Assembly: GCA_030691775.1 (NCBI GenBank)
Contig: JAUYDN010000099.1
Coordinates: 1-35,184, forward strand
Length of the DNA stretch: 35,184 nucleotides
Source of the DNA: Dehalococcoidia bacterium
GTDB lineage: Bacteria > Chloroflexota > Dehalococcoidia > Dehalococcoidales > Fen-1064
Direction of reading: 5' to 3'
Numbering within the stretch: the first letter of the stretch is position 1; the number at the start of each line of letters is the position of its first letter. A model generated the notes under the pieces. The model was given only the letters and a program-made list of their open reading frames with translations. It did no database searches and was not told the DNA's origin. Both the position numbers and the translations under genes were made by a program. This document shows, piece after piece, positions 4,789 to 23,964 of the stretch.

Positions 4789-4864
4789 GGGCCACTAGCT
4801 CAAATGGCAGAGCAGCTGACTCTTAATCAGCAGGTTCAGCGTTCGATTCGCTGGTGGCTCACCA
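4789..4864 (+). tRNA. tRNA-Lys (anticodon CTT), CCA encoded
   Basis: Acceptor GGGCCAC/GTGGCTC (one G-T pair), anticodon arm GCTGA-CTCTTAA-TCAGC, T arm CAGCG-TTCGATT-CGCTG, then ACCA. Confidence 0.95.
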
Positions 4865-4946: not shown

Positions 4947-6122
4947 TTACAATTCCGCTTCTACCGTATCCTTGTGCTTTGGCATGACTATATCATCGAA
5001 TCTGTTAGCGGCTGCTTCCTGTAGCCCCGGCGCTACATGGCTATAGGTATCAAGGGTTATCTGGATGCTGGAATGCCCTAACCTCTCCTGGACTATCTTC
5101 GGGTGAATCCCTTGTTTGAGCATTAACGAGGCGTGGGTATGTCTGGCATCATGCAATCGAACACCTTTTAATCCACACCGGAGCGCCAGTTTATGCCAGG
5201 AGTGTGTAATACCATCCGGTAGATAGGGCTTGCCAGTATGATGGCAGAAAACTAAATCATCATCCGTGAAAGGTAGACTTAGCGATTCCCTTAGCTTCTG
5301 TTGGGCTTCCCGGTGTTCCTTGAGAACTATCGTGGTTGATGGGGAGAGCGCTATCATCCGGCGGGATTTTGCGGTTTTAGCTTCTCCGTAGATAATCTGT
5401 CCATTATGTAGCTGGTGAATAGTCCGGCTAATGGATACCTGGCAGAGTATCAAGTCCACGTCAGACCACCGGAGCGCCAGTATTTCAGACCGGCGCATAC
5501 CAGTAAACAACAGGGTGTAGAATAAGGCGTAAAATGGGGTAGACCTGGCATATTCTAAAAATAGGTGTATATCGCTTTCATTCATAGTTCGCAATTCGTG
5601 GTAGTGCACCTTTGGAGCTTCTACAGCATCGGCAACGTTGCGGGGTATCATTCCTAGCTTGACGGCGCTTGATAGGGCTTTATGCATGGTAACGTGGCAA
5701 TAGCGGACAGTCCGGTTACTGAGTCCGCCTTTACCATCGGAGCGCCCGGCGGATAGCTTCTCTGAGTATAAATGCTGTAGATGTTCGGGCTTCAGTTGCG
5801 TGAGTAATATCTTACCCAGGGACGGTATCAAGTGAGTACGCACGATGTACTGATAGCTTTCAGCAGTCCGAGGTGTAAGATTAGACCAGCAGTAATCATG
5901 GAGCCATTGCTCTAGGTAGTCCGCAACTGTCTGCTTACCCGGCTTTACAAATATTCCTTTATCAAGTTCGGTTAATAACTCCCGGAGTCTTTTTTCAGCC
6001 TGGGCTTTATTGCCCCTCAGCGTCTCATAGTGTGAAGTGTATTTACCAGTGGTCGTGTCTCTGCCTAGAGATACCCTAACGCGGTAGGAATCCTCAGACC
6101 GTTTAATAATCGAACCTCTCAT
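4947..6122 (-). CDS. int: tyrosine recombinase / phage-type integrase
   Basis: SAM-like N-terminal domain plus catalytic R (FTGMRRSEILALRW), H-x-x-R (HDARHTHASLML), GHSS and DTYSHV tyrosine; next to tRNA 3' end. Confidence 0.95.
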   Translation of the reverse strand: MRGSIIKRSEDSYRVRVSLGRDTTTGKYTSHYETLRGNKAQAEKRLRELLTELDKGIFVKPGKQTVADYLEQWLHDYCWSNLTPRTAESYQYIVRTHLIPSLGKILLTQLKPEHLQHLYSEKLSAGRSDGKGGLSNRTVRYCHVTMHKALSSAVKLGMIPRNVADAVEAPKVHYHELRTMNESDIHLFLEYARSTPFYALFYTLLFTGMRRSEILALRWSDVDLILCQVSISRTIHQLHNGQIIYGEAKTAKSRRMIALSPSTTIVLKEHREAQQKLRESLSLPFTDDDLVFCHHTGKPYLPDGITHSWHKLALRCGLKGVRLHDARHTHASLMLKQGIHPKIVQERLGHSSIQITLDTYSHVAPGLQEAAANRFDDIVMPKHKDTVEAEL

Positions 6123-6844
6123 TTTTTCTCCTTTCTTGGCGATATTATCATCGTATTAGTCTGAAATCGTGACTTGAATGCCAATGTAGGGTCATAATCA
6201 TCCGCATTGACATGGATGGGTTCACCCAGTTGTTCATCATTACCTATTTTACCTTCTGTAAAAATATAGGAATCTAAACCGGAAGTGTCTGGATACTGTT
6301 CGCCTTCTAACTCGCTGAGCTGTTCTTGCGCTGCGTATTGGTAAGTAATAATCGCAAGTAAAGCTAAACGTGAATCATTATGGGGGGTCGGAATGCTGAC
6401 CGTATCCCCTTCCTTAGTGACGATTGGCTCCAGTCCCGACAGACAATCTTCCAAAGGACGTTTCGCAGCAGACATTTCATATACTACGGGCTTTAATCTG
6501 GCAAACCATCTGGCTTGACGGATAGTAAATTTCGGTTGTCCTACTTGTTCATGTTCAATCAGAGTGGGGATAATATCAGCCGGAATGTTGTATTTTTCAC
6601 AGGAGCCGATAGACCAGGGCGAATCTATAGGGTCAAATATTACTTTTTCCTTATTCTTTTGGATTATGTTATAAATAGCCCTTTCTTTTGGAATATATTT
6701 TGAACCTGGGTGAATCTTTAATAGTTTTTCTCTGATGTCTTTTGCTGATAATTTGCCCTCAACGTCATTTTTTTTGAGTAAAAGAATATCATCTTTTATA
6801 TCCTTTTTTGTGTTAGGTCCTCTTAATCCTTTTCTGCCATTCAT
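6119..6844 (-). CDS. unknown element protein, translationally coupled to integrase
   Basis: 241-aa ORF whose stop overlaps the integrase ATG (4-nt overlap); no recognised domain. Confidence 0.6.
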   Translation of the reverse strand: MNGRKGLRGPNTKKDIKDDILLLKKNDVEGKLSAKDIREKLLKIHPGSKYIPKERAIYNIIQKNKEKVIFDPIDSPWSIGSCEKYNIPADIIPTLIEHEQVGQPKFTIRQARWFARLKPVVYEMSAAKRPLEDCLSGLEPIVTKEGDTVSIPTPHNDSRLALLAIITYQYAAQEQLSELEGEQYPDTSGLDSYIFTEGKIGNDEQLGEPIHVNADDYDPTLAFKSRFQTNTMIISPRKEKK

Positions 6845-6869
6845 CTTATTGACTCCTAAAAATCATACT

Positions 6870-6928
6870 CATATGTGCAATTTGTCTATATTCACTAACT
6901 TATATGTGCATCATATGTGCGAAATGTC
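6870..6928. promoter_or_regulatory. candidate operator: three ATATGTGC direct repeats in divergent intergenic region
   Basis: ATATGTGC at 6871-6878, 6902-6909, 6913-6920; outer copies extend to CATATGTGCAATTTGTC and CATATGTGCGAAATGTC. Confidence 0.6.
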
Positions 6929-7003
6929 GTTTGACAAATCTAATAATAAACCTCAAAGTAGGAATTGTCAAGGGTGTGTTCTAGTTATTTGGAGGTAATT
7001 ACG

Positions 7004-7192
7004 ATGGATAGTAACAAAAGAGTTTTTTACCCGGAAGATATTGCGCAAGAAACCGGCTTAGGACTTAACCTGGTCTATCGGCTACTACGAGCTGGGGAAA
7101 TTTCCCATGTGAAAGCTGGCGATAGATATTTAGTAAGCCGAGCGAACTTTGAAAAATGGCTCTCTGGGGAAAGCCAGGCTCCGGCAAAATAG
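7004..7192 (+). CDS. excisionase/MerR-like helix-turn-helix protein
   Basis: MDSNKRVFYPEDIAQETGLGLNLVYRLLRAGEISHVKAGDRYLVSRANFEKWLSG matches the short DNA-binding excisionase pattern; GGAGG RBS. Confidence 0.75.
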   Translation: MDSNKRVFYPEDIAQETGLGLNLVYRLLRAGEISHVKAGDRYLVSRANFEKWLSGESQAPAK

Positions 7193-7218: not shown

Positions 7219-7377
7219 ATGAAAGATAAAACAGAGGAAAAACAAATCAAATTTGAAGACCAAGCAATTTTGTGTATTGAGTGTGGTCATACTTTCCTAT
7301 TCTCTGCGCCCCATGCCGGATGTACAGGAAGCTCACCCTGGTTAAAGGGGGGAGAGAATGAGACCACGAGACTTTGA
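7219..7377 (+). CDS. small Cys-containing protein (partial zinc-ribbon-like)
   Basis: MKDKTEEKQIKFEDQAILCIECGHTFLFSAPHAGCTGS; one CxxC. Weak. Confidence 0.35.
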   Translation: MKDKTEEKQIKFEDQAILCIECGHTFLFSAPHAGCTGSSPWLKGGENETTRL

Positions 7378-9715
7378 GGACATACTCTCCAGGCTTCCCG
7401 GTGCTAAGCAAAGTGGTGATAGCTGGACAGCGCCTTGTAACCTATCGGGGCATAAGACACCGGCGGGACACCTTACCTTAAAGGATGCTGGAGACAAGGC
7501 ACTTGTTACTTGCCAGGGCGGGAAGCATAGCTACCAGGACTATTGCCAGGCATGGGGCTTTGATTCTCTTACCTATTCTGATAATGGTATAGGGGGGAGT
7601 ACCACCAACGGTAGACCCTGTCAACCTGTCAACGGTAGGGCAAAACAGGCACAAAACAGGGTTGACACCCCCCTGTCAACTGTTGTCAACGGTGTCAACC
7701 TTACGACTTTGGCGGAAGCCAAGCACCTACCAGTAGACTTCCTTAAATCTCTGGGTATGAGCGACTTCAAGTACAACGGACAGCCTTCAGTCAAAATACC
7801 CTACTATGCAGAGGACGGAACCGAACGGGCGGTACGTTTCAGGCTTGCCTTAACAGCAGCAGAGGGGACGCGCTTCAAGTGGCGGAAGGGCGACCATGCG
7901 ATGCCCTACGGATTAAACAGGTTAATAAAAATACGGAAAGCGGGTTGGGTTCTTATTGTTGAAGGTGAGTCTGACTGCTGGACGTGCTGGTTTCACAGCA
8001 TACCAGCACTAGGTGCGCCAGGGAAGGGGACATATCCGCCAGCGTGGGGGGAATATCTCAAGGGTCTCGATGTCTTTGTCTGGCAAGAGCCTGATGCCGA
8101 GGACTTCGTTTTGCGGGTACTTAAAGGCACGCCTGAATTGCGATATATCCCGGCACCGGACGGCATAAAGGACATTTCAGAAGCGCACATTCAGGGGCTT
8201 GATGTCCCGTCATGGCTAGAGGACTTGAAAGCCAAATCAGAATCAGGACAGGCACTAAAAGCTCAAAATGACAATGAGCGGTTAGGGCAGCTTTACATCA
8301 AGGCAAAAGCGGTTATCGAGGCTGAAGACCCCCTGGAACTAATATCGGCTGCAATCCGGGGCTTGGGTTATGGCGGTGATATAAGACCCACTATAATCGT
8401 TTACCTCGCTGCCACGTCCCGTCTACTGGCTATGCGTGATGGTGCTATGCCGGTACACCTTTTAATAATGGGGATTAGCTCTAGCGGCAAATCCTATACT
8501 TTGCGTGTAGTCCTGATTCTTTTCCCTGCGGAGGCTTACCACGTCATAAGCGCAGGCTCACCACGTACCATTATTTACGATGATACAGACCTTCAGCATC
8601 GGTTACTGGTATTCGGGGAAGCGGACAGTTTACCGGCGGGTGAAGATAACCCGGCAGCAAGCGCCATTCGTAATTTGCTTCAAGACCATTCTCTCCATTG
8701 GGAGGTCACCATTCGGGACGCTGACACCGGGGATTTCACCGTGCGCAAGGTAGTTAAGCCGGGACCTACGGTTTTAATCACTACCAGCACCCGGTCACTG
8801 GGAGCGCAACTAATGACCCGCCTTTTTACCCTGGAGATTGGGGATTCAAAAGAGCAAATCGAGGCGGCGCTTAAAACGCAGGCAGCACTAGAGATTGAAG
8901 GCTCAAAGCCTCTTGACGGTTCGCTTGTATCTTTTCAGGCTTATCTACAGTTGAAAGCACCATTCAAGGTGATTGTCCCCTACGCTGGAGAACTGGCTAA
9001 TGGCATGGCTAAAATGGCTTCAGCACCACGCATTTTAAGGGACTTTGCACGCCTTCTGAGTCTCATTAAGTCAGTCGCCATTATCCGTCACCACTGGCGG
9101 GAAACAGATAATGATGGGCGTCTTGTGGCTACTTTGACCGATTACGAGACGGTAAGGGAGCTGGTGAACGATATGTATATTGATTCCAGCACTGGTGCTA
9201 CTAGCGAGATAAGGGCACTTGTAGATGCGGTGAGAGCACTTGACGCCACCAGGGGTAACGGTGGTCAAATCACCAATACCACATTGGCAAAGCACCTGGC
9301 GACAGGCGTAAAGCAAGTCACCCGGCGGGCTGGTAGGGCTATCAAGGCTGGATGGCTAGTCAACCGAGAGCAACGGAAGTTCTATCCGGCGGATTATGCA
9401 CCGGGTGAACCTATGCCAGAAGTGGAAGGTTTGCCGGTGCTAGAAGGCTTGACAGGGTTGACATCCCTTGACACCCCCCTGTCAATGAATTCTGAAGCTA
9501 AAAATGAGGGGGTTGACAGGTTGACACACCTTACCGTTGGCGATATACCCCCTCCCCCTGACACCGACCTGCCGCCGGTTCCCAACCATCCCTGCCATGA
9601 CTGCGGGAAAGACGAATGGTCTTTTGAAGAGAAAGGTGGAACGGTGTACTCGAAATGTGCGAGCTGTGGCATTGTTCACTATCCGGCTGGCTGCCCGCAA
9701 TGCCGAGAAGGGTAA
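7358..9715 (+). CDS. mobile-element primase/helicase-type replication protein (TOPRIM-like + P-loop + C-terminal Zn ribbon)
   Basis: VLIVEGESDCWTCW (TOPRIM-like), GISSSGKSYTL (Walker A), LLVFGEADSL (Walker B-like), winged-helix-like VKQVTRRAGRAIKAGWLV, CHDCGKDEW...CASCG Zn ribbon. Confidence 0.75.
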   Translation: MRPRDFEDILSRLPGAKQSGDSWTAPCNLSGHKTPAGHLTLKDAGDKALVTCQGGKHSYQDYCQAWGFDSLTYSDNGIGGSTTNGRPCQPVNGRAKQAQNRVDTPLSTVVNGVNLTTLAEAKHLPVDFLKSLGMSDFKYNGQPSVKIPYYAEDGTERAVRFRLALTAAEGTRFKWRKGDHAMPYGLNRLIKIRKAGWVLIVEGESDCWTCWFHSIPALGAPGKGTYPPAWGEYLKGLDVFVWQEPDAEDFVLRVLKGTPELRYIPAPDGIKDISEAHIQGLDVPSWLEDLKAKSESGQALKAQNDNERLGQLYIKAKAVIEAEDPLELISAAIRGLGYGGDIRPTIIVYLAATSRLLAMRDGAMPVHLLIMGISSSGKSYTLRVVLILFPAEAYHVISAGSPRTIIYDDTDLQHRLLVFGEADSLPAGEDNPAASAIRNLLQDHSLHWEVTIRDADTGDFTVRKVVKPGPTVLITTSTRSLGAQLMTRLFTLEIGDSKEQIEAALKTQAALEIEGSKPLDGSLVSFQAYLQLKAPFKVIVPYAGELANGMAKMASAPRILRDFARLLSLIKSVAIIRHHWRETDNDGRLVATLTDYETVRELVNDMYIDSSTGATSEIRALVDAVRALDATRGNGGQITNTTLAKHLATGVKQVTRRAGRAIKAGWLVNREQRKFYPADYAPGEPMPEVEGLPVLEGLTGLTSLDTPLSMNSEAKNEGVDRLTHLTVGDIPPPPDTDLPPVPNHPCHDCGKDEWSFEEKGGTVYSKCASCGIVHYPAGCPQCREG
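7619..7699. repeat. iteron-like cluster 1: six TGTCAAC/GTTGACA in 81 bp
   Basis: 7619-7625, 7627-7633, 7661-7667 (reverse), 7674-7680, 7684-7690, 7693-7699. Confidence 0.8.
9449..9526. repeat. iteron-like cluster 2: six TTGACA/TGTCAA in 78 bp
   Basis: 9449-9454, 9458-9463, 9468-9473, 9480-9485 (reverse), 9513-9518, 9521-9526; shares TTGACACCCCCCTGTCAA with cluster 1. Confidence 0.8.
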
Positions 9716-11507: not shown

Positions 11508-11726
11508 ATGATAGTTCAGTGTCCTCACTGCGGCAAAGAAATAGCGGTGAATGGTTTAGGTCGTCCGAGGTTAGATATACCACTCAAAAACGTTTATGAG
11601 TCCCTTTCGAGGCATTGTAGCGTGATAGCAGCAGCCAATGAGCTAGGTTGTAGTCCAGCTTACATATTTGGCGCCCTGAAAGCCAATGGGATGAAATTAA
11701 AGGATGTGCTAAAGAGATGCGAGTAG
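11508..11726 (+). CDS. small zinc-finger/HTH protein overlapping the serine recombinase start
   Basis: CPHCGKEIAVNG then GRPRLDIPLKNVYESLSRHCSVIAAANELGCSPAYIFGALKANG (resolvase-HTH-like); GGGAGG RBS; overlaps the next gene by 10 nt. Confidence 0.6.
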   Translation: MIVQCPHCGKEIAVNGLGRPRLDIPLKNVYESLSRHCSVIAAANELGCSPAYIFGALKANGMKLKDVLKRCE

Positions 11727-12274
11727 CAGCCTACCTTCGGGTATCAACTTCAGACCAGAGTGTTGATAATCAGTTACCTGCCATTGAGCAATTAGTTAAG
11801 GACAGGGGTTGGGAGCTGGCAGAAGTTTATGCGGAACATGAAAGCGCCTGGCGGTCCGGGCATCAGTATGAACTGAAGCACTTGCTGGATGATTTACGGA
11901 GCGGCAAACATAAATACGATTATGTGGTCGTTTGGAGCTTGGATAGATTAACCAGAGAAGGCATCGCCAAGATATTTGACCTGATGCATTCTTTTAAGAC
12001 GTGCGGTTGCCAGGTGATAAGCGTTAAAGAGCCGTGGACCGAGACGAGCGGTATTATGACTGACTTACTTTATGCTGTAAGCGCCTGGGTAGCTGAATTT
12101 GAAAGCAGCAGACGCTCGGAACGGATTCAAGCTGGTATCAAGCGAAAGACGGAAAGGGAGGGTTATAGACCAGGCCGTCAGAAAGGTGCTAAGGATAGGG
12201 GAAAGAGGGACCGCACCGGGTATCTCCTACGGTATGCCAAGAAGAAAAGAACACCGGTTGGAGCGAGCAAATAA
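11717..12274 (+). CDS. small serine recombinase (resolvase/invertase family)
   Basis: MRVAAYLRVSTSDQSVDNQ (catalytic Ser region), YDYVVVWSLDRLTRE, ESSRRSERIQAGIKR. Confidence 0.92.
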   Translation: MRVAAYLRVSTSDQSVDNQLPAIEQLVKDRGWELAEVYAEHESAWRSGHQYELKHLLDDLRSGKHKYDYVVVWSLDRLTREGIAKIFDLMHSFKTCGCQVISVKEPWTETSGIMTDLLYAVSAWVAEFESSRRSERIQAGIKRKTEREGYRPGRQKGAKDRGKRDRTGYLLRYAKKKRTPVGASK

Positions 12275-12540: not shown

Positions 12541-14214
12541 ATGATTGATATCCAGCCTCAGCTCCTGACCCTAAGCGGGTTGCTAAGCAAGCGTCTTTTC
12601 CGGATTCCTCAATATCAGCGCGCTTACAGTTGGCACTCCAGGCACAGACAAGATTTGTTTAACGACATCGTCAACACATGGCGTGCCGAGGGTGACCGCC
12701 AGCACTTCATGGCCACAGTAGTCGGACTCCGCCGTGAGAGGCGCATGATTGGAACCGACGAACACCAAGTGGTTGAAATTGTTGACGGTCAGCAACGGAT
12801 AACAACTGTCATTCTGCTTTTGAAAGCAATTGCGAAGATTGTGAATCGTTCGGACCAAGAGGGAGATAGAGTTGGCCGCGAACTCGATGAGACTCTAGTT
12901 AAGCCGGACAAAGCCTCGCTATTGCTCTTGCAGACGAACCACGATATCAGTAACTACTTTGCCGATTATCTGAGAACGGGAAATCACCCAAGCTCGGATT
13001 TGGCGACTACCCAATCAGACCGCGAACTTTTGCTCGCCATTGAGGAATGCGAGCAATTTCTAATGTCCTGTAGTAAAGAGGGCCTACCAGTTATCGACTT
13101 GGTTAGTCTGCTCAAGAACCGACTGACATTCGTGTTCCACGAAATTAGTGACGAAGCGCTGGTTTACACCGTTTTCGAAGTGTTGAACAGCCGTGGTCTT
13201 GAAGTCTCTTGGTTTGACCGTCTGAAGAGTATGCTAATGGCCATCGTGTTTGAAGCTAAGGAGAACAGTCCTGAGATTACAAGAGAAGTTCATACTCTTT
13301 GGAGTGACATCTACAGATGCGTCGGATTGCGAATAGGGATGAGTACAGAATCGCTTCGTTTCGCTGCATGTCTGCGTGAAAAAGCTGCTCCGAGCCGACT
13401 CCCCAGTGAGGAGGATGCTGCAAATATATTACGGACGCGGGCCAAGGCTAGTACTGCAGACGTAATCGAGATTACCAACTGGCTGAAAACGGTGACTGCA
13501 GCAATGGACAAAGTGCTCGGCGACCGCCGGACTAGAGGTGTTACGAGGATTGTGCAAGCACGCTTGGTCGCTGCTGCAATACATATTCGCCGCGATTTGA
13601 CCGATGGGGATAGGACAGAGGTGCTTCGCCGGTGGGAAAACGTTGCATTCCGCATGTACGGCATGTTTGGCTTGGACGCACGCTACGCCGTTGGAGACTA
13701 CATTCGGCTTGCTTGGAGGGTCGCGAATGAAAACCTGGACCGAGACGCAATTCTGAAGGAATTGTCGAGTATTGGAGCCCAGTACCCGATTACTGAAGCC
13801 TTAGAGAACCTCCGTAGCGCCGACCGCTATAACGGTTGGCAGGAAGAACTACGATATTTTCTTTTCAGGTATGAAGAGCATCTCACGAAGAAGGCAGGAC
13901 AGAATTTCAACAACGAACAATGGAATCATATCTGGATAGCTAACGCCTCGGATTCTATTGAACACATTCTCCCTCAGAGTTCAGGAAGTGATAAGGTGGA
14001 CCGCCTGGGAAATTTATTGTTGCTTCCCCCTAAGTTGAACTCCAAACTTCGTGCCCTCAGTCCGTCGAAGAAGTCCGAGGAATATCGCAAGACCGGCCTG
14101 TTGATAGCCGGGAAGGCAGCAGACCAAGTAGAGAGTTCTCGATGGGGACTAGGACAAATCAAAATCAGAGAGGACGAACTGTTGGACTGGGCAAAAACTG
14201 AATGGGCTGATTGA
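12541..14214 (+). CDS. DUF262/DUF1524 (GmrSD/BrxU-like) nuclease
   Basis: FRIPQYQRAYSW and VEIVDGQQRITTVILLL (DUF262 DGQQR), C-terminal SIEHILPQSSGSDKVDRLGNLLLLPPKLNSKL (His-Me finger DUF1524). Confidence 0.88.
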   Translation: MIDIQPQLLTLSGLLSKRLFRIPQYQRAYSWHSRHRQDLFNDIVNTWRAEGDRQHFMATVVGLRRERRMIGTDEHQVVEIVDGQQRITTVILLLKAIAKIVNRSDQEGDRVGRELDETLVKPDKASLLLLQTNHDISNYFADYLRTGNHPSSDLATTQSDRELLLAIEECEQFLMSCSKEGLPVIDLVSLLKNRLTFVFHEISDEALVYTVFEVLNSRGLEVSWFDRLKSMLMAIVFEAKENSPEITREVHTLWSDIYRCVGLRIGMSTESLRFAACLREKAAPSRLPSEEDAANILRTRAKASTADVIEITNWLKTVTAAMDKVLGDRRTRGVTRIVQARLVAAAIHIRRDLTDGDRTEVLRRWENVAFRMYGMFGLDARYAVGDYIRLAWRVANENLDRDAILKELSSIGAQYPITEALENLRSADRYNGWQEELRYFLFRYEEHLTKKAGQNFNNEQWNHIWIANASDSIEHILPQSSGSDKVDRLGNLLLLPPKLNSKLRALSPSKKSEEYRKTGLLIAGKAADQVESSRWGLGQIKIREDELLDWAKTEWAD

Positions 14215-14271
14215 GCGGTTGCCCAGTCCCTCGGAGTGCAGTCATTTTCCCTTCGAAGCACAGGAGTCTTA

Positions 14272-17200
14272 ATGAATGTCGCCGACCAAGTCCAACAGCA
14301 GCTTCGGGCCCTCAATGGCTATGATGCCCTTCTTGCGCTGTTTGAAGCGCTGGGGTTCAGTTATGCCAATGAGCCGCACTCAACTGTGGATTGGACTGAG
14401 TCTGTAAAGCGAGATGTTTCCGACTTCCGTCTTGCCGCGAGACATGGTGCCTTTAATGTTTTCTACGTAGTTATTCCAGAATCGCACATGTTCAGCCGAG
14501 AACGGCAGATTACCTCGAAAATCCTGGCAACCGAGCCTCACAGTTTGATTGTCTTTACCGAGCCAGCACACCGGCTCTGGCATTTCGTACACGTCCGTTA
14601 CGATGAGCGCCTAGAACGGCGTAAACAGCTCCGTCGCTTTGTTGTTGACCTGGGAGAAGAACACACCGAGACCCGCCTTCGCACCACTGCCGAACGTCTT
14701 GCCCGCATTGCGATTCAACCCAGTGAGCAGGTTTCGGTACTGGAAATGCAAGAACGCTGTGATGAAGCCTTCCGCATCAGTGAAGTAACCAGGGGATTCC
14801 TGAAATCCTTTGTCAGCGTAGTCGCTGACCTGACCAACGCCCTGCTGAAGAATAATCCTGCCTTGCTGAAAACAGAGCCAGAAGCTTTATGCCAGGCGCA
14901 ACTTCTTATGGACCGGCTCGTCTTCCTCTACTTCGTACAGAAAAAGAACTGGCTGAATGGAGAGCCAGCCTATCTTTATTTACGTTTCCGTAAGTGCTAC
15001 GAGGCAGACCATGGGCAGGATACATTTTACCGGGAACGTTTGTTGCCCCTATTCCGTGCTCTATCTCATCGTGCCGCTCAGCGTCCTCACACAGATGACG
15101 GTAAAGATGAAGCGCTCCCGTTCTTAAACGGCGGCCTCTTTGACCTGCCGCTGTCCTATGGAACAGCCAATCCTCCCATCGATGAGCGACTGCGCCTCCC
15201 AAATCAGGCTCTCTACTCTGTTTTTGAGGATTTTCTGGAGCGTTACAATTTCACGACCACGGAAGACACGCCTCTCGATGTCGAAGTGGCAATTAACCCG
15301 GAGGTCATTGGCACGATTTTTGAGACGTTCGTGCTCACTTCGGAAAACGAGCCGGAAACTAATGCTCCTGACCGGCGCAAAGCCACGGGTAGTTATTACA
15401 CTCCTCGTTGCGTCGTCCATTTTATTTGCCAGGCAGTTTTCCGCCGCTATCTTGCCAGCCGGACGGGCATCGCCGAACGAGTCGTAAAGGAATTGGTGGA
15501 ATACCTGCCTGCCCAGCAGTTGTCCAGTGATGAGGAAAAGGAATTAGTCGGACTGATGTCCGTCAAGGATGCTGAAAAGTTACGCGAGGCAGCCGTTCAA
15601 ATACGTGCCTGCGACCCCGCCGTGGGTTCCGGTGCTTTCCCGGTGGGTTTGCTCCAGGAAGTGGTAAAGCTAGTCTCTTTACTGGATTTACGCATCAAAG
15701 GCAGGGACTACATTCAACACCTCAACTATGCCCACGACCTCAAAAAACGTGTTATTGAAGAATGCCTTTACGGCGTAGATATCCAGGAGCAGGCAGTGCA
15801 GATATGCGAATTGCGTCTCTGGCTATCGCTTGTGGTAGACTATGAGACTGACGAGAGGCTGCCTCTTATCGAGCGTATATCGCAGATAGAACCGCTGCCA
15901 AACCTGACGTTCCGCATACGAGTAGGTGATTCGCTCATTGACCAAATCTTTGGTCGTAATTGGGATGTCAAAAATCAGCGTCATGATGACCTTACCAGCG
16001 AATTGACTGCCAGGAAACGTTCTTACTACGAATCACAAACGCCGGAAGGCAAACGTGATTTGGAGCGGCAAATTATTGTACTGCAATTACGGCTGCTGGA
16101 ACGGTTGCTTGAGGCAGAGCGGCTGGAAACCGGCGCGGACCTGCCTATGCTCGACGAAATGGTGAGCGCCCAACAACGATTAAGAGTCACTTATATTAAG
16201 ATGCGCCTGCAGGAAATTGATGACTTGCTGAAGCACTGCCGTACAGCGATGGGGCAGGCAAATCAGCCGGTTGCAGAAGCCTGGGAGCACACCCGCCGCT
16301 TTGATGCTATCCGCAAGCAGCTTGGTGTCTCTTTCATCTGGGAACTGGACTTTGCCGAGGCATTTGACCCTGCACGCAGCGGCAATGGTGATAACAAGAA
16401 AGGCTTTGATGTCATTGTAGGAAATCCGCCTTTTGTTACCGCCCGCAACCCGGAAAAACGCGAACAGTACCGGAGGCGCTGGCCAACGAGCTGTTACAAG
16501 AAATACCACCTGCTGGCGCCCTTTACCGAACTCGCGCTTAGTAAGTTGCTGCGGAAGGGTGGGCAACTCGGTTACATTGTATCAAACGCCTTTGCCACGC
16601 GTGATTTTGGAAAACCTTTAGTGGAGCAGGTTTTCCAGCAGATGGAACTGCAGAACGTGGTTGATTGCTCCGGGCTGATGTTCCCAGGACATGGCACGCC
16701 CACCTGTATTCTTCTCGGGTACACCGTGGCAAATAGACCGAAACTGACTACGTATTTGTGCGGTACTAAACCAGGCATGGGCCAACTGCATGAGGAAGCG
16801 GAAGAAACCGAGTTGTGGGCTGAGATTGAAGACGGTTGGGAGAACCCCACTTTCAAAGGCAAACGGATGGAGGTCGCTGAATGGACTGAGGACGTAGCTC
16901 GAGCACATCCGTGGTCATTGAACGCGGCAGGTACGAATCTGAAGGACTCCATGGAAGAAGGTTCTTCAATGCTTGACGGATATTCTCCCTACTCGGTTAG
17001 TTACTCCACAGTTTCAGGAAAAGACGCTGTGTTCGTTTTACCGTTTGATTCTAGCCGAAGGTTCCTTTTGAAAGATTTAGCCAGATTATTTGTCCTGGGA
17101 GAAGAGCTGCGTGATTGGAGTGTTACTCCTTCTCAATTGGCTATCCACCCATTTAGCGATGATGGACTTTTACTTGAACCGGAACTGTTGTCTGCCGGAG

Positions 17201-18573
17201 CAAGCAAGTATTTCGCTAGATTTCGGGGATGTCTGGAAAACCGTCAGGGAATGCTGTTTCAACAAGGCATGAAGAAGGGAGAACCCTGGTACCGTTATGA
17301 ATACTACGACCAGAAGAGGGCGGGTAGTGAAGTTCGCATTATTTGGGCTTTCATTGCGACTCACATTTCGGCATGTGACGGGGTACTCGGTCTGCAGACG
17401 AATCGTTCAATAAATGACTTCATCCCTGGCGCAATTGGGGACCCGAAGTTATTTCTCGCCCTACTCAACTCTTCCTCTGCACTCTTCTACCTTAGGCAAA
17501 TCTGTTTCTGTAAGAGGGAAAGTAGTAACCCTGAAACTGATAACTACTACGAATTCGCGGGAGGCAAAGTAGAACAACTGTCGGTACCCCGCCTACTCCT
17601 GGAAGACAATCACGTGAAAGAACGTACCAGTTTGCTGGCGGGAAAATGCTCCGTACTTGGAGCACTCGTCCCGGGTCTCCATCCGCGTAAGCTCTTCGAG
17701 ATGCCGCGCGAAGCCTATACAGACTGGTACGGCGGCATCCGAGGTTACCAGTTGCCTCATCCCGCTCTGAACCTCAAGTGGAGAACGGCAAGCGAGCTGC
17801 TTAGGGCATGGCGTTGGGCAATTGATGAAATGCATACCATCCGCAGACAGATGATTGCCTTACAAGAAGAAATGGACTGGCTGATGTACGGCGCCTATCA
17901 GATACTGCCCCTAAACCACCCTGCGGTAAACCTGCATGGCCCTCCGCAACCCCAAGCCATCGACCGTATAGAACGTCCCTATCGTCTGGTGCAGAACAAC
18001 CAATCCTCTCCACCTGACTGGAGCGTGGAGCAAAGAAGACTTTGGCAGGCGCGCCTCGATGCCATTGCGGAGGAAGAATTTATTGGACAGGTAGAAAATC
18101 CGGCTTACAAACGGCGTTGGGAAGAACCCTTCGGTGATAAAGATTTCCTCACGGCGTATGAATGGTGGCTCAGGGAAAAGGCTGAGTGGTGGCTGGAAAA
18201 CAAACACAAAGGTGGCCCCATCAGTCTGGATGTGTGGGCAGCCGAACTATGGCAGGACAGACGCGTGAGAGCTGCATACGAAGCTGCCTTGGAGATTGGG
18301 CAAGCAATAGGAGACAAAGACTACCAGCGTGAAGCTGAAAATGGCAATCAAGCCCGGCACCTGAAGCGCGTTATCGAAGAAGAGACAGTGCCGGACCGGC
18401 GAGATGCATTTAAGAAAAAACACGAGAAACTGCGCAGCATTAGTGCCGAGAAACATTTGCCTAATGGCGTGCCCAGGGAAAGGTTCCGCTCGGTTACAGA
18501 TAAACCTGGCTATTACGTATGGGCGGGGAAGGACATCTGGGGCGGCGTTCAAGGAGATAAATGGGATGACTGA
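14272..18573 (+). CDS. Eco57I/PglX-like N6-adenine DNA methyltransferase
   Basis: Motif I RACDPAVGSGAFPVGLLQEV and motif IV FDVIVGNPPFVTARNPEKREQY, GSYYTPRCVVHFI; TRD-like region follows. ATG 14272 preceded by CAGGAG. Confidence 0.9.
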   Translation: MNVADQVQQQLRALNGYDALLALFEALGFSYANEPHSTVDWTESVKRDVSDFRLAARHGAFNVFYVVIPESHMFSRERQITSKILATEPHSLIVFTEPAHRLWHFVHVRYDERLERRKQLRRFVVDLGEEHTETRLRTTAERLARIAIQPSEQVSVLEMQERCDEAFRISEVTRGFLKSFVSVVADLTNALLKNNPALLKTEPEALCQAQLLMDRLVFLYFVQKKNWLNGEPAYLYLRFRKCYEADHGQDTFYRERLLPLFRALSHRAAQRPHTDDGKDEALPFLNGGLFDLPLSYGTANPPIDERLRLPNQALYSVFEDFLERYNFTTTEDTPLDVEVAINPEVIGTIFETFVLTSENEPETNAPDRRKATGSYYTPRCVVHFICQAVFRRYLASRTGIAERVVKELVEYLPAQQLSSDEEKELVGLMSVKDAEKLREAAVQIRACDPAVGSGAFPVGLLQEVVKLVSLLDLRIKGRDYIQHLNYAHDLKKRVIEECLYGVDIQEQAVQICELRLWLSLVVDYETDERLPLIERISQIEPLPNLTFRIRVGDSLIDQIFGRNWDVKNQRHDDLTSELTARKRSYYESQTPEGKRDLERQIIVLQLRLLERLLEAERLETGADLPMLDEMVSAQQRLRVTYIKMRLQEIDDLLKHCRTAMGQANQPVAEAWEHTRRFDAIRKQLGVSFIWELDFAEAFDPARSGNGDNKKGFDVIVGNPPFVTARNPEKREQYRRRWPTSCYKKYHLLAPFTELALSKLLRKGGQLGYIVSNAFATRDFGKPLVEQVFQQMELQNVVDCSGLMFPGHGTPTCILLGYTVANRPKLTTYLCGTKPGMGQLHEEAEETELWAEIEDGWENPTFKGKRMEVAEWTEDVARAHPWSLNAAGTNLKDSMEEGSSMLDGYSPYSVSYSTVSGKDAVFVLPFDSSRRFLLKDLARLFVLGEELRDWSVTPSQLAIHPFSDDGLLLEPELLSAGASKYFARFRGCLENRQGMLFQQGMKKGEPWYRYEYYDQKRAGSEVRIIWAFIATHISACDGVLGLQTNRSINDFIPGAIGDPKLFLALLNSSSALFYLRQICFCKRESSNPETDNYYEFAGGKVEQLSVPRLLLEDNHVKERTSLLAGKCSVLGALVPGLHPRKLFEMPREAYTDWYGGIRGYQLPHPALNLKWRTASELLRAWRWAIDEMHTIRRQMIALQEEMDWLMYGAYQILPLNHPAVNLHGPPQPQAIDRIERPYRLVQNNQSSPPDWSVEQRRLWQARLDAIAEEEFIGQVENPAYKRRWEEPFGDKDFLTAYEWWLREKAEWWLENKHKGGPISLDVWAAELWQDRRVRAAYEAALEIGQAIGDKDYQREAENGNQARHLKRVIEEETVPDRRDAFKKKHEKLRSISAEKHLPNGVPRERFRSVTDKPGYYVWAGKDIWGGVQGDKWDD

Positions 18574-21500
18574 CCGGCTGATAGATAACCAGGACTTACG
18601 CCTTTCTGACGCTCTCAGTGAGCTCATTCCACACGCTACGGTGGCGCGATTCGCGGTGGGCTATTTCTTCATTTCCGGGTTCAACGCCCTCGCGGACAAA
18701 ATAGGTAAACTCGACAAGCTGCAATTGCTTATTGGCACCACCAGTAGCAAAGAGACCATTGAGCAACTGGCGCTCGGTTACCGCCGCCGCGAGCTAATTG
18801 AAGAGAAACTGAGAGAACAGCGGTTTGTAGCCGTGGAACGGGCAATCGGGGAGACTGTAACCAGTATCCGTCAAGAAATCAGCGAGCTGCAACCCGGCGA
18901 GCGCGAAGAAAAGACAATCGCCACGCTCGCTGAGCTTATTACGTCTGGCAAAATCGAAGTCAAGGTCTACACACGTGGGACATTGCACGCCAAAGCCTAC
19001 ATTTTCGACTATCGGCATCCCCAGCCCAATTCTAAGGGCATCGGTATTGTCGGCTCCAGCAATCTCACTGAGCCTGGCCTGACCGTAAACAGTGAGCTCA
19101 ATGTTCAGGTAGACGACGACGCAAATGTTATGACTGGTGAAGGGCTCCACCGCGACTTGTGCACGTGGTTTGATAGGCTCTGGGCAGATGCAAAGCCATT
19201 CTCAACAGAGCTGATGAATGAATTAAAGGAAAGCTGGGCCCTTACCGTCGCCCGCCCGTACGATGTCTACCTGAAGATGCTCTTCGAACTGGTGCGGAGC
19301 AGACTCGAAGGTGATGGTTCGAAACTGATTTTGCCGGAAGAGATTCCGCTCGCGGCATATCAAAAAGTGGCGGTACAGCAAGCAATCCGCATGGTCGACC
19401 AGTACGGAGGGGCCTTCGTGGCAGATGTGGTGGGTGTAGGGAAGACTTTTGTTGGCTCGGCCGTTGCCCGCTTCTATTATGAATCAGAAAAACGCCGGCC
19501 GCTCATCATTTGTCCCAACGCACTCGTGGAGATGTGGGAAAAGTACAGCAAGATGTGGTTCCTCAATGCGGAAATCGTTTCCATGAGTATGCTGCGGGAA
19601 CAGTCTGCGGAAGGCGCAGACAGGAAAATCTCCGGGCTGGACGAAGAACTGGTGCAGCACTGCGGCTTCGTGCTTATTGATGAAAGTCACAACTTCCGGT
19701 ATTCAGATAGCCAGCGCTATCGGGTACTCTCGGACTTCCTGATGGAGGGCACGGACCGGAAGGTTCTATTGCTCACTGCCACTCCCTACAACAAATCGGC
19801 GCTGGACATTTATAACCAGCTAAAATTGTTCCACCACAACGAGACGACGATGATACCGGTCGAGCCCCGCAATCTGAAGCAGTATTTCAAACGAGTGGAG
19901 GATGGAGAACGGCGGCTCTCCGACCTATTGGTCCACATGCTCGTAAGACGGACCCGTTGGCAATTACTCCGCTGGTACGGGTACGACGAGAACACTGATA
20001 AAGCGGTAGATACTCACAACTTCCAACCTTACCTCAACAGCGAGAAACGTGCCTACCTCCGCTTCTATGATGCGGCGGGCACACTATCTAAGAAATTCTT
20101 CCCCTTACGGGAATTGGAGACAATCGATTACTGCATTGACGACGTATACGGTAATCTCTTCGGCAAATCGCTCTACGACCAGATTGTGGCTTTGCTGCAC
20201 AGGCGTAAAACCAGTATCAGTGAGGAAACACTCGAGGACGAGCCGGCGCCGGCGTCCGACCCCAGAGCGCTTACCTACGCTCGGTATGGGCTATGGAATT
20301 ACGTCAAACCGGAGTGGAAAAACGACGCTCGTTATAAGAGACTGGTGAGAGCCGGGAAGAACCTGCGCGGACTTATCCGCACTAGCCTTTTTAAGCGTCT
20401 CGAAAGCTCCGTGGAGGCTTTTCGCAAAAGCATCGGCCGGCAGGTAACTGTGCATGAGAACTTCTTGGCGGCACTCAGTAACGGGAAAATCGCTGCCGGT
20501 GAAAGGGCCGCCGACCTATTAGAAATTGACCGGGATGATACCGAAGAAGCGTTACAGTCCTTTCTCAATGCGCTTGAAGAATTCGAAGAGCAACGTGGCT
20601 TTCATTATGACATCGACGCCTTCGAGAAGGAGCACCTGCGCGCTGACGTGGAGCACGACCTAGACACTTTCCGTGACATCAATGAAATGGTGAGCACTGC
20701 AAAGATTCCCGCTTCAAACGACGACAAGCTGAAGACCCTTATGAAACAGCTGCTAAAATTAAGACAGAAAGGGAAAGTCATTCTCTTCACTCAATATGAG
20801 GATACAGCCAAGTACCTGATGGACAATCTGCCAACTGCCCTACGCTCGCATGCCGCTTTGGTTACCGGCGAAACCGAGAACAAGATGAGTGTTGTCAGGC
20901 GTTTCGCACCAGAAGCCAATGAATACGCTCCTGGGCGGGGTCAGGAACTGCATCTATTGATTGCTACGGATGTATTATCCGAAGGTCTAAACCTACAAGA
21001 CTGCCACCAGGTCGTCAACTATGACCTGCATTGGAATCCCGTCCGGTTAATTCAACGGTTTGGACGCATCGACCGCGTCGGCTCTAACCATGACAGGATT
21101 TTCGCCTTCAATTTCTTGCCAGAAAAGGCCGCAGAGCATGAGCTGGGGTTAAGCGAGAAGCTACGGGCAAGAATCAGTGAGTTCAATGAGATATTGGGGC
21201 TTGATTCACAAGTACTTGATAACAAGGAGAAGGTAAATACTGAGGCAGTCTATGCAGTCTACGAGGAAAAAGGCGGCAGACACTTGGGCGCTTTTGAAGC
21301 AGGAGAAACTGACCTGGTCGGAGTCACGCTGGCGGAAGCTGAGGAGTTCTTCCGGGATTTACGGGAGAAAGCGCCTGCAGAATATGACCGCATTAAGAAC
21401 TTGCGAGATGGCATCCGCACAGCCCGTTCGACGGGCGAAAAAAAAGTGCTTGTATTGTGCCGTGCCGGTGACTTCCTGCATCTGTATGTGCGTAATCTCG

Positions 21501-21973
21501 ATGACCAGTCTGTAGACATTGACACTCTTGACGCACTTAATCTTTTGAAATGCGGGCCAGAGGAGTTACCGGCGGAGCTTCCTAGAAACCTAAATGGCAT
21601 TCTAACAACGGTGAAGCTGAAACTCACAAATGATGTCGACGAGCTATGGAAACAAAGCCGCACCAAGAGTCCGCTTAGCCCAGGGCAAAAATACGTTCGC
21701 GACGGATTGGAACGATTGCGTGTGCAATTACCTCACTTGGATGCCGACGGGGGACTTAGCCGTCTTGCCGAAGCCACTGTGAAAACACGTCAGCGGCGTT
21801 TCCAGCGGGCATGCGATAGATTGCGCCGGGATAAAGTAGCTGGAGAAGCACTACTAAGGAGAACCCGACAGCTGTACTATGACTGTGCCCTTCACATTGA
21901 AGTCGCCGCCGTCAAGGAAGAAGAGATTGAAACCAGGATACCGAGAATTGTTGCGGTGGCGGCGCTGGTGTAG
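18566..21973 (+). CDS. PLD(HKD)-domain SNF2-family helicase
   Basis: HAKAYIFD (HxKx4D) with GSSNLTEPGL; DVVGVGKTFVG (motif I), LIDESHNFR (II), LLTATPYN (III), ATDVLSEGLNLQDCHQVVNYDLHWNPVRLIQRFGRIDRVGS (V/VI). ATG 18566 overlaps the methylase TGA by 8 nt. Confidence 0.92.
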   Translation: MTDRLIDNQDLRLSDALSELIPHATVARFAVGYFFISGFNALADKIGKLDKLQLLIGTTSSKETIEQLALGYRRRELIEEKLREQRFVAVERAIGETVTSIRQEISELQPGEREEKTIATLAELITSGKIEVKVYTRGTLHAKAYIFDYRHPQPNSKGIGIVGSSNLTEPGLTVNSELNVQVDDDANVMTGEGLHRDLCTWFDRLWADAKPFSTELMNELKESWALTVARPYDVYLKMLFELVRSRLEGDGSKLILPEEIPLAAYQKVAVQQAIRMVDQYGGAFVADVVGVGKTFVGSAVARFYYESEKRRPLIICPNALVEMWEKYSKMWFLNAEIVSMSMLREQSAEGADRKISGLDEELVQHCGFVLIDESHNFRYSDSQRYRVLSDFLMEGTDRKVLLLTATPYNKSALDIYNQLKLFHHNETTMIPVEPRNLKQYFKRVEDGERRLSDLLVHMLVRRTRWQLLRWYGYDENTDKAVDTHNFQPYLNSEKRAYLRFYDAAGTLSKKFFPLRELETIDYCIDDVYGNLFGKSLYDQIVALLHRRKTSISEETLEDEPAPASDPRALTYARYGLWNYVKPEWKNDARYKRLVRAGKNLRGLIRTSLFKRLESSVEAFRKSIGRQVTVHENFLAALSNGKIAAGERAADLLEIDRDDTEEALQSFLNALEEFEEQRGFHYDIDAFEKEHLRADVEHDLDTFRDINEMVSTAKIPASNDDKLKTLMKQLLKLRQKGKVILFTQYEDTAKYLMDNLPTALRSHAALVTGETENKMSVVRRFAPEANEYAPGRGQELHLLIATDVLSEGLNLQDCHQVVNYDLHWNPVRLIQRFGRIDRVGSNHDRIFAFNFLPEKAAEHELGLSEKLRARISEFNEILGLDSQVLDNKEKVNTEAVYAVYEEKGGRHLGAFEAGETDLVGVTLAEAEEFFRDLREKAPAEYDRIKNLRDGIRTARSTGEKKVLVLCRAGDFLHLYVRNLDDQSVDIDTLDALNLLKCGPEELPAELPRNLNGILTTVKLKLTNDVDELWKQSRTKSPLSPGQKYVRDGLERLRVQLPHLDADGGLSRLAEATVKTRQRRFQRACDRLRRDKVAGEALLRRTRQLYYDCALHIEVAAVKEEEIETRIPRIVAVAALV

Positions 21974-22246
21974 TCAATCGCAACAAATATAAATACACGG
22001 GTTCTCAATGTTCAAGTCGTAATTATCGGCGTTTGCCGAAGTATAGTCACCATTCGAGACTGCACATTTCGTCATGTTGTGTTATGAACCCCTGTCCGTG
22101 CGGAATGTAGTTACGACAATCGAGAGGGAGGTGGTTTTGAAATAGGGTTGCGGTCACCGGTGCCCCCGAGATGCAGCAAGGTAAATGAGGTTAGTGCTGA
22201 CAAGAAACCAGCCCATGTGTATAATTGGAACACAGAGAACTACGCC

Positions 22247-22588
22247 ATGTCTGAAACTACTTCTGCTCAAATGGAAAAGCGTCAGCGTGTCATGGGGTGG
22301 GTGGCTGTAGCACTATCCACGCTGGCCGCCTCAGTCCTGGGCATCGTCGCCGGTGAAGAGGTCATCATGCGCGACTGGCTTGGCGCCCTTTCGCACGCGG
22401 CTCAAATGTTGGTCGTAATAGTAGCTACCCTGGTCGCCCTGCGCTGGCCGCAATTTGGTGGCAGCCTCCTTGTGCTGGCCGGACTGGGGTTTATGTTACA
22501 GCTTGCACTAGTACTACTACGTTATGTTGCATTCGACGACATATGCCAACATATATTATTGCTTCGATGTCTCGGTCATGAAAGGTAA
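22247..22588 (+). CDS. small multi-pass membrane protein
   Basis: MSETTSAQMEKRQRVMGWVAVALSTLAASVLGIVAG...MLVVIVATLVALRW...SLLVLAGLGFMLQLALVLLRYVAF; about three hydrophobic segments. TATAAT at 22220. Confidence 0.55.
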   Translation: MSETTSAQMEKRQRVMGWVAVALSTLAASVLGIVAGEEVIMRDWLGALSHAAQMLVVIVATLVALRWPQFGGSLLVLAGLGFMLQLALVLLRYVAFDDICQHILLLRCLGHER

Positions 22589-22636: not shown

Positions 22637-23964
22637 CTAGCAGGGTGCTGAAAAACGGGTGTTGGTGGGCATTTCTTCAGCCCTGATGCCTCTTTGTTGA
22701 TAATTCCTCACTGCTTTTTAGTTTTCGAAGTCGCTGGAAGGGGCTAAAACTGGTGTTTCGAGCCCGGTTTCAGTTTATTAGGCATAGTTCACCCCCAGCG
22801 GGCATGGCCAAGGCAAGTTTGGCCATCCTCACCAGGTTGTAGGCCACAGCGGTGAGCTCCCACCAGAGCCGGTTGCGCACCAACCCCTTATACCTGAGCT
22901 TGCGACCTCCGCCGACTGTCTTCACCCAGCCAAATATCTCCTCGACACGCTTGCGTATCCGCTGACTGGCTTGATAACCCGTATGGCGGGTGGTGCGTCC
23001 ATCCACCTTCGAAGTCTGGCGGCGGGCTACATGGGGCGTGATGTTCATTCTACGGCACATGGTGACGAAATCCTGTGTGTCGTAGCCCTTGTCTGCCCCG
23101 ACGGTAATCCGGCGTGACACCGGCACTCCCTCCAGCATGTCCAGCGCCGCGTCACGTTCCGCCGTGCCGGTAGCCTGAGTAAAGGTGACATCTACTACCA
23201 TGCCATTGCGGTTCTCCATCAGGACGTGGCCGGCAAAACATAGCTTGGCTTCCTTACCACGTCCCTTCCTGGCCAGCCACGCCTCGGGGTCCGTAGTCGA
23301 TTGGTGAGTATCATTCGTCCGCTGTTCCCCATGGAAGTCTACGCTGGGATTCTTCTCCCCGGTAGTGGGTGTGTCATTGCCCGCATCCTTGGGACGAAAA
23401 CTCTTCAAGGATGCCCACGCCTCCAGTAACGTGCCATCTACGGTGAAGTGGTCCTCTGATAGCAGCCTGCGCCGCCGCGCCTCTTCCAGTACCACTACCA
23501 GGAACTCCCTCGCCACGTCATGCTCTAGCAGTCTCTCCTTGTTCTTGGAGAAGGTCGAGGCATCAAACGCCGGGTCTATTATGTTGAGGTCCAGAAACCA
23601 CTTGAACAGCAGGTCGTACTGTAGTCGTTCACAGAACTGGCGCTCACTGCGCACCGAGTACAGGGCAATTAGTAGACATGCTTTGAGCAGGTGCTCGGGT
23701 GGTATTGAAGGCCGACCTGTCTCGGCATACATCCGGCTGAACGTAGGAGACAGCTCCCGCAGAGCGTTATCCACAATCGGTTTGATTTGACGTATAGGGT
23801 GGTCTTCAGGCACTAACTGGTCGGCCGTCACCAGACTGAGCATCGTCACCTGCGCATCTGCTTTGCCACGCATCTAAGCCTCCGATTATCTCGTTGGCTC
23901 TAATCTACCACAACCCGCAGGCTAAGTCAGCTACCCCCAAGAGACTTTTTCAGCACCCTGCTAG
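22637..23964. mobile_element. complete IS5/IS1182-like insertion sequence (22641-23960) with CTAG target duplication
   Basis: CAGGGTGCTGAAAAA (22641-22655) matches the reverse complement of TTTTTCAGCACCCTG (23946-23960); CTAG at 22637-22640 and 23961-23964; one full-length transposase inside. Confidence 0.93.
22770..23873 (-). CDS. IS5/IS1182-like DDE transposase
   Basis: DUF772-like N-terminus (MYAETGRPSIPPEHLLKACLLIALYSVRSERQFCERLQYDLLFKWFLDLN), DDE domain (FTVDGTLLEAWAS, GADKGYDTQDF, RIRKRVEEIFGWVKTVGG). Confidence 0.93.
   Translation of the reverse strand: MRGKADAQVTMLSLVTADQLVPEDHPIRQIKPIVDNALRELSPTFSRMYAETGRPSIPPEHLLKACLLIALYSVRSERQFCERLQYDLLFKWFLDLNIIDPAFDASTFSKNKERLLEHDVAREFLVVVLEEARRRRLLSEDHFTVDGTLLEAWASLKSFRPKDAGNDTPTTGEKNPSVDFHGEQRTNDTHQSTTDPEAWLARKGRGKEAKLCFAGHVLMENRNGMVVDVTFTQATGTAERDAALDMLEGVPVSRRITVGADKGYDTQDFVTMCRRMNITPHVARRQTSKVDGRTTRHTGYQASQRIRKRVEEIFGWVKTVGGGRKLRYKGLVRNRLWWELTAVAYNLVRMAKLALAMPAGGELCLIN

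Follow-up and report, generated by a model that had tools for sequence, protein, structure and literature searches.

Nucleases of the phospholipase D (PLD) type are coupled to ATP-driven motors in several described systems. More than 95 relatives of CglI and NgoAVII carry the PLD nuclease and the ATPase fused (PMC4267653), and in SauUSI the PLD domains form a stable dimer while the ATPase drives translocation (PMC7913695). Type-2 BREX-Related systems, centred on DUF499, include an HKD-SNF2 helicase and an N6-methylase (PMC12839542), and orf33/orf34 of the Lactococcus lactis plasmid pLd8 have been described as a putative type II restriction-modification (RM) system (PMC6098607). A literature search found no paper naming or testing the bare pair of a PLD-SNF2 helicase and a methylase. 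Here we analyse such a pair on a 35,184 nt stretch of a Dehalococcoidia bacterium genome (GCA_030691775.1, contig JAUYDN010000099.1), the whole of which is called the window. Four genes at 12541–22588 had been predicted, from the sequence alone, to form one compact defence module. We find that two of them, an N6-adenine DNA methylase and a PLD nuclease–SWI2/SNF2 helicase fusion, are an obligate pair. We propose, with a probability of about 0.72, that they constitute a two-gene, ATP-dependent RM system targeted by its methylase, the GmrSD-like gene upstream being separate.

The methylase, core gene 1 (14272–18573, forward strand), is of the Eco57I type, with matches to the Pfam families Eco57I (97 bits), N6_Mtase and DUF7008 (49 bits). 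Motif I, DPAVGSGAF (15613–15639), and motif IV, NPPF, of the adenine N6 type (16423–16434), are in frame. The most likely start is the ATG at 14272 behind AGGAG, the longest open reading frame (ORF) beginning at 14236. Core gene 2 (18566–21973, forward strand) encodes the fusion, with Pfam matches to PLDc_2 (41 bits), SNF2-rel_dom (41 bits) and Helicase_C (67 bits). It most likely starts at the ATG at 18566, not at 18404, with AAGGAG in front, which gives an 8 nt overlap with the stop of the methylase gene (ATGACTGA). The nuclease active-site stretch (18986–19096) comprises HxK (18986–18994), which opens HAKAYIFD (in frame at 18986–19009), GSSN (19052–19063) and a Glu (19094–19096). The motor motifs (19430–21076) include Walker A VGVGKT (19430–19447), DESH (19679–19690), TATPY (19775) and QRFGRIDR (21053–21076). 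All motifs named in the original prediction, here and in the GmrSD-like gene, are present at the positions and in the frames given for them, and its domain assignments for these three genes are borne out by Pfam scores far over chance.

The single HKD nuclease is thus fused ahead of an SNF2 motor with its catalytic residues intact. Across 34 aligned sequences the HxK, GSSN, Glu, Walker A, DExH and QRxGRxxR motifs are conserved; in the protein numbered from 18566, H141 and K143 are invariant, and N166 (of GSSN) and E177 are found in 33–34 of the 34. The label "HKD" therefore holds for the H and K but not for the final D, which is kept in 7/34 sequences, and the H, K, Asn and Glu together are what we take to be a BfiI-type set. 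An AlphaFold model (mean pLDDT 81) predicts a PLD domain, then an SNF2 motor of two lobes that contains a large insertion, and a mixed region at the C terminus. The solved structures matched by this model were SNF2 motors and SauUSI (7clg), and the nuclease domain also matches SauUSI by sequence. By analogy with SauUSI and BfiI, the helicase-nuclease probably dimerises. Running PADLOC, one of the checks suggested with the original prediction, showed that the helicase fits an existing model, HKD+Snf2 (PDLC01075, 228 bits), which was the best match for the window protein and for seven tested family members.

A single profile scan with the helicase, against genomes taken one per species, returned 80 loci, in 79 of which the helicase frame exceeded 700 residues. 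A methylase of the window's family lies beside the helicase in 71 of these 79 loci, on the same strand in every case (71/71), downstream in 50 and upstream in 21, and within 100 nt in 40. It is present in all 31 loci having at least 5 kb on both sides, and the 8 loci without it each have <5 kb on at least one side. Methylase and PLD-SNF2 helicase, genes 2 and 3 of the four, are an obligate pair. The pair occurs across many bacterial phyla and in archaea, and is borne on plasmids of archaea (Halorussus, Thermococcus), cyanobacteria, Deinococcus, Rhodococcus, Lactococcus and Pelobacter. The host genome itself holds a second pair (contig G000:C224; locus L142, 7281–13656), near a Prim-Pol gene, whose helicase stands on a distant branch of a FastTree tree from that of the window, adjoining one from Methanoculleus; this second pair probably sits on another mobile element. 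No relatives of the methylase were found in viral contigs, and phage records yielded nine partial helicase matches only and no match to the methylase C-terminal half (C-half).

By sequence similarity the methylase is a chimera of a helicase-associated front and a C-half like that of BREX-2 PglX, with one other genome known to hold the same combination. Residues 1 to ~815 match methylases of other pairs. Residues ~815–1445 (16681–18570), the putative target-recognition half that contains DUF7008, match only BREX-2 PglX (locus L032; NCBIfam BREX_2_MTaseX) and the methylase of locus L144. The BREX_2_MTaseX score of 288 bits comes mostly from the C-half and does not reach the curated cutoff of 400. 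The L144 methylase, from the same order, matches at 31–42% over residues 180–1445 and carries DUF7008 too. Beside it lies its own PLD-SNF2 (HKD) helicase, distant from that of the window in the FastTree tree, though on a long branch, and no DUF262 was found among the frames scanned on its 11 kb contig. Among 400 genomes searched within the phylum, the host alone contained the C-half; the genome of L144 was not among the 400 drawn, and the chimera count is a lower bound.

The two halves of the methylase also differ in how fast they change. Across 70 loci the median normalised similarity was 0.03 for the C-half, compared with 0.12 for the helicase and 0.10 for the methylase front half. Pairs that are close relatives retain helicase and front half while their C-halves differ, as between loci L035 and L036 (C-half 0.08, helicase 0.72, front half 0.66). 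Helicase similarity correlated with that of the front half at rho 0.41 and with that of the C-half at rho 0.14. Turnover in the C-half far outpaces that in the helicase and in the front half, which makes it the probable seat of target specificity, and such turnover would fit a target-recognition half that the methylase carries and that serves modification and restriction alike. With its PglX-like targeting half, the window copy should have a target unlike that of its relatives.

That the methylase marks self and the PLD-helicase restricts unmodified DNA, as originally predicted, is the best reading of a pair that recurs wherever flanks suffice. The methylase would find a specific DNA site via its C-terminal half and methylate the host copies. 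On an unmethylated site it would instead recruit or activate its superfamily 2 (SF2; SWI2/SNF2) partner, a motor led by the single-HKD nuclease. Two such proteins would join via these nuclease domains, travel along the DNA with ATP and cut it, and the system may serve in phage defence; the host would be spared because its own sites are methylated. The nuclease-motor would act as in SauUSI, but triggered by the methylase at an unmethylated site.

Several points weigh against this proposal. Our literature search found neither biochemistry nor a methylome for any member of the pair. The correlation of front half and helicase (rho 0.41) is moderate, and the higher overall rate of change in the C-half is enough, on its own, to reduce its correlation with the helicase. 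Moreover, the N-terminal domain of the methylase (residues 1–140) is without an assigned fold, the best structural match of this fragment being a weak one to MmeI. A hidden nuclease at this end was considered and rejected, since no acid/lysine set is invariant and the fold matched no nuclease; a nuclease within residues 1–140 is unlikely.

If the proposal is true, a very common gene pair would be one RM class, in which the target is set by the methylase and cutting is left to the PLD-SNF2 protein, and the specificity of such RM pairs would be predictable and swappable. In BREX the part that PglX plays in defence is not easily told apart from those of PglZ and BrxC; with a half of the BREX-2 PglX kind on an ordinary RM methylase, PglX target recognition could be studied outside BREX. 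More tentatively, and with more doubt than belief, we suggest that the pair is an unnamed, phylum-spanning RM class in which a nuclease-motor blind to sequence is served by the methylase as an exchangeable specificity subunit. Such methylases could take target-recognition halves from BREX PglX, so that BREX and restriction would share a pool of specificity modules.

The original prediction placed all four genes in one module behind one plausible promoter, with the pair restricting unmodified DNA and the GmrSD-like enzyme targeting modified phage DNA; were this a single evolved unit, the membrane protein would be a helper. The GmrSD-like gene (12541–14214, forward strand; 557 aa, intact) does belong to the GmrSD family, with DUF262 and DUF1524, DGQQR (12784–12798), an HNH motif, EHILPQ (13960–13977) and Pfam scores of 99 bits for GmrSD_N and 59 bits for GmrSD_C. 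The nearest PADLOC model is HEC-06 (174 bits). Its stop lies 57 nt before the methylase start on the same strand, it may be co-transcribed with the pair, BrxU in BREX offers a precedent (PMC12839542), and in Deinococcus radiophilus plasmid pRadio5 a DUF262 gene separates methylase from helicase. We sought GmrSD_N (PF03235) in 50 of the genomes with pair loci. Although 33 of the 50 genomes have at least one match, a complete DUF262 gene lies in the stretch around the pair, up to 10 kb each side, in three loci (L053, L075, L106) and is absent from 47/50; a fourth, L054, has a cut DUF262 gene on the opposite strand at the stretch edge. The tabulation thus upheld the linkage of methylase and PLD-helicase but not that of DUF262. 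Three complete ORFs in 0.98 Mb of flanks is above the ~0.4 expected from genome-wide density (~75 matches in ~179 Mb, by printed genome sizes), and is what a defence island would lead one to expect rather than the mark of a fixed partner. Moreover, no DUF262 gene turned up around the closest relatives of the helicase (L042, L043, L047), and no helicase or methylase of the pair families was found in the stretches read around the four closest relatives of the GmrSD-like protein (65%, G270; 62%, G077; 45%, a Rhizobium plasmid; 40%, a Kozakia plasmid identity). By BLAST, the DUF262 proteins at other pairs show either a weak match (L106) or none to that of the window and are therefore independent arrivals. 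As for the fourth gene, encoding a 113 aa membrane-type protein (22247–22588, forward strand; start ATG 22247, ORF from 22148), it has a weak DUF7670 match below the Pfam cutoff, no BLAST relatives in any pair locus, and its own promoter-like site (11/12 match, 22197–22225). The single promoter fared poorly, its best match upstream of gene 1 being 9/12 in a search that gave 3 promoter-like sites against 0.9 expected. A four-gene unit is accordingly quite unlikely; the small membrane gene is probably not part of the pair, and the GmrSD-like gene, which from its place directly upstream seems an operon member, is better explained as an independent neighbour, probably a type IV-like restriction gene.

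Three further explanations concern the pair itself. It could act as a SauUSI-like, modification-dependent nuclease in which the C-terminal region of the helicase reads modified DNA and the methylase merely travels along. The PLD-helicase order is that of SauUSI, and the C-terminal region is indeed variable, but Pfam detects no domain that reads modified bases (SRA, EVE or another) on the helicase, and a methylase that is not needed in such a scheme is never missing where flanks suffice; we regard this as unlikely. That the locus is instead a reduced Type-2 BREX-Related, DISARM or BREX system, its ATPase and other parts lost, might be supposed from the HKD-SNF2 helicase and N6-methylase common to the first of these (PMC12839542) and from the PglX-like C-half. 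Yet the bare pair is the rule (31/31) and not a decayed exception, and the PADLOC models HmaA, DrmD and BrxH match mainly the helicase motor. Neither DUF499 nor, by Pfam, DUF3780 was found among the window proteins scanned, and no DUF499 frame was found in the pair loci of the 50 genomes, though 15 of those genomes have DUF499 elsewhere. Of ten DUF499 loci examined for comparison, two had an SNF2 helicase, with the HKD motif in neither. Such an origin is very unlikely. Lastly, an insertion sequence (IS) element with inverted repeats at 22637 and 23964, 48 nt past gene 4, might mark a decayed remnant on a mobile element; the frames are full length, the catalytic and motor residues are present and the overlap and ribosome sites are intact, which makes decay extremely improbable. 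The two-gene RM system remains our preferred reading.

The surroundings of the four genes bear marks of mobility. A tyrosine integrase (4947–6122, reverse strand) adjoins tRNA-Lys (4789–4864) and marks the left end of an integrated element; a dehydrogenase-nitroreductase-tRNA-Lys block recurs in a genome of the same genus, with no integrase detected there. Support for an integrated element is thus confined to the left side; a search of the window turned up no right-hand repeat of the tRNA-Lys end. To the right, the cluster is bounded by the IS element (22637–23964), which has a DDE transposase (22770–23873, reverse strand) and 19 nt perfect inverted repeats. Left of the cluster, a 785 aa frame (7358–9715; weak primase/helicase match) contains a long inverted repeat (7593–7633/9512–9552) and a repeated palindrome, TTGACACCCCCCTGTCAA, at 7662 and 9468, which the element may use in replication or recombination.

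Immediately upstream of the cluster lies a small serine recombinase of the resolvase/invertase type (11717–12274, forward strand; 185 aa; Pfam Resolvase, PHROG DNA invertase), and small serine recombinases also adjoin several pairs on plasmids (L030, L031, L034, L038). In L038 (Lactococcus cremoris pJM1F, 7794–9579) a 321 nt inverted repeat, 71% complementary, links the methylase's 3′ portion to a TaqI_C specificity fragment that faces the opposite way, beside an Mpi-type serine recombinase; this arrangement looks like a phase-variable target-recognition switch in the PLD-SNF2/methylase RM class. An invertible target-recognition cassette beside the window's recombinase was rejected, there being no inverted repeat of the L038 kind. 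The neighbours at other pairs include Schlafen/AlbA, PD-(D/E)XK, AIPR, nucleotidyltransferase and a separate PLD-like protein. In a same-order relative (L140, 10796–11851) a separate 351 aa protein with a weak PLD match lies between methylase and PLD-SNF2 helicase. In L106 (Pseudonocardia humida, 5084–7192) GmrSD_N and GmrSD_C are fused with a DNA-binding domain of the alkyltransferase type (PF01035, scoring slightly over the cutoff).

How the locus compares with known systems can now be stated. The original prediction held that it matches none of them, and so far as the missing genes go this was right: PglZ, BrxC, DrmA and DrmB were all absent from the window proteins scanned. Nor does the window contain any other part of a BREX set, be it BrxC/PglY, PglW or another BREX gene, and of DISARM the DrmA model matches the helicase motor only. 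With BREX-2 PglX the methylase has its DUF7008-bearing C-half in common, but its front half is of the PLD-helicase-associated kind, and with Type-2 BREX-Related systems the pair has the HKD-SNF2 helicase and N6-methylase in common. Type I and ISP RM systems use a PD-(D/E)XK (HsdR/Mrr) nuclease, whereas the window pair has a PLD nuclease instead. Gene 1 shares DUF262 with DGQQR and DUF1524/HNH with GmrSD, BrxU and HEC-06; it has no close relative with a known target, and its nearest relatives lie apart from any pair.

The claim of no match does not hold for the pair, given the fused NgoAVII/CglI relatives, the L. lactis genes and the PADLOC HKD+Snf2 model. As in the NgoAVII/CglI/BceSIV class (PMC4267653), the window has a PLD nuclease with a motor and a protecting methylase, the nuclease there being driven by a DNA-dependent ATPase; characterised members have separate nuclease and ATPase, whereas the window has one frame, and its methylase is of the N6-adenine type and its motor of the SNF2 type. 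SauUSI (PDB 7clg; PMC7913695) likewise has an N-terminal single-HKD PLD domain followed by an SF2 translocase, but it reads modified DNA through an SRA domain at its C terminus and lacks a methylase partner. Among the closest are pLd8 orf33/orf34 and plasmid pairs such as that of pJM1F (L038), in which a PLD-SNF2 helicase lies beside an N6-methylase. In these as in the window the methylase is annotated as IIG-like and has no recognisable nuclease of its own; the pLd8-like methylase has a TaqI_C-type recognition domain (pfam12950), whereas that of the window has the PglX/DUF7008-like C-half. The kind of system is therefore already known in outline, and its chimeric methylase makes the window pair a variant of it.

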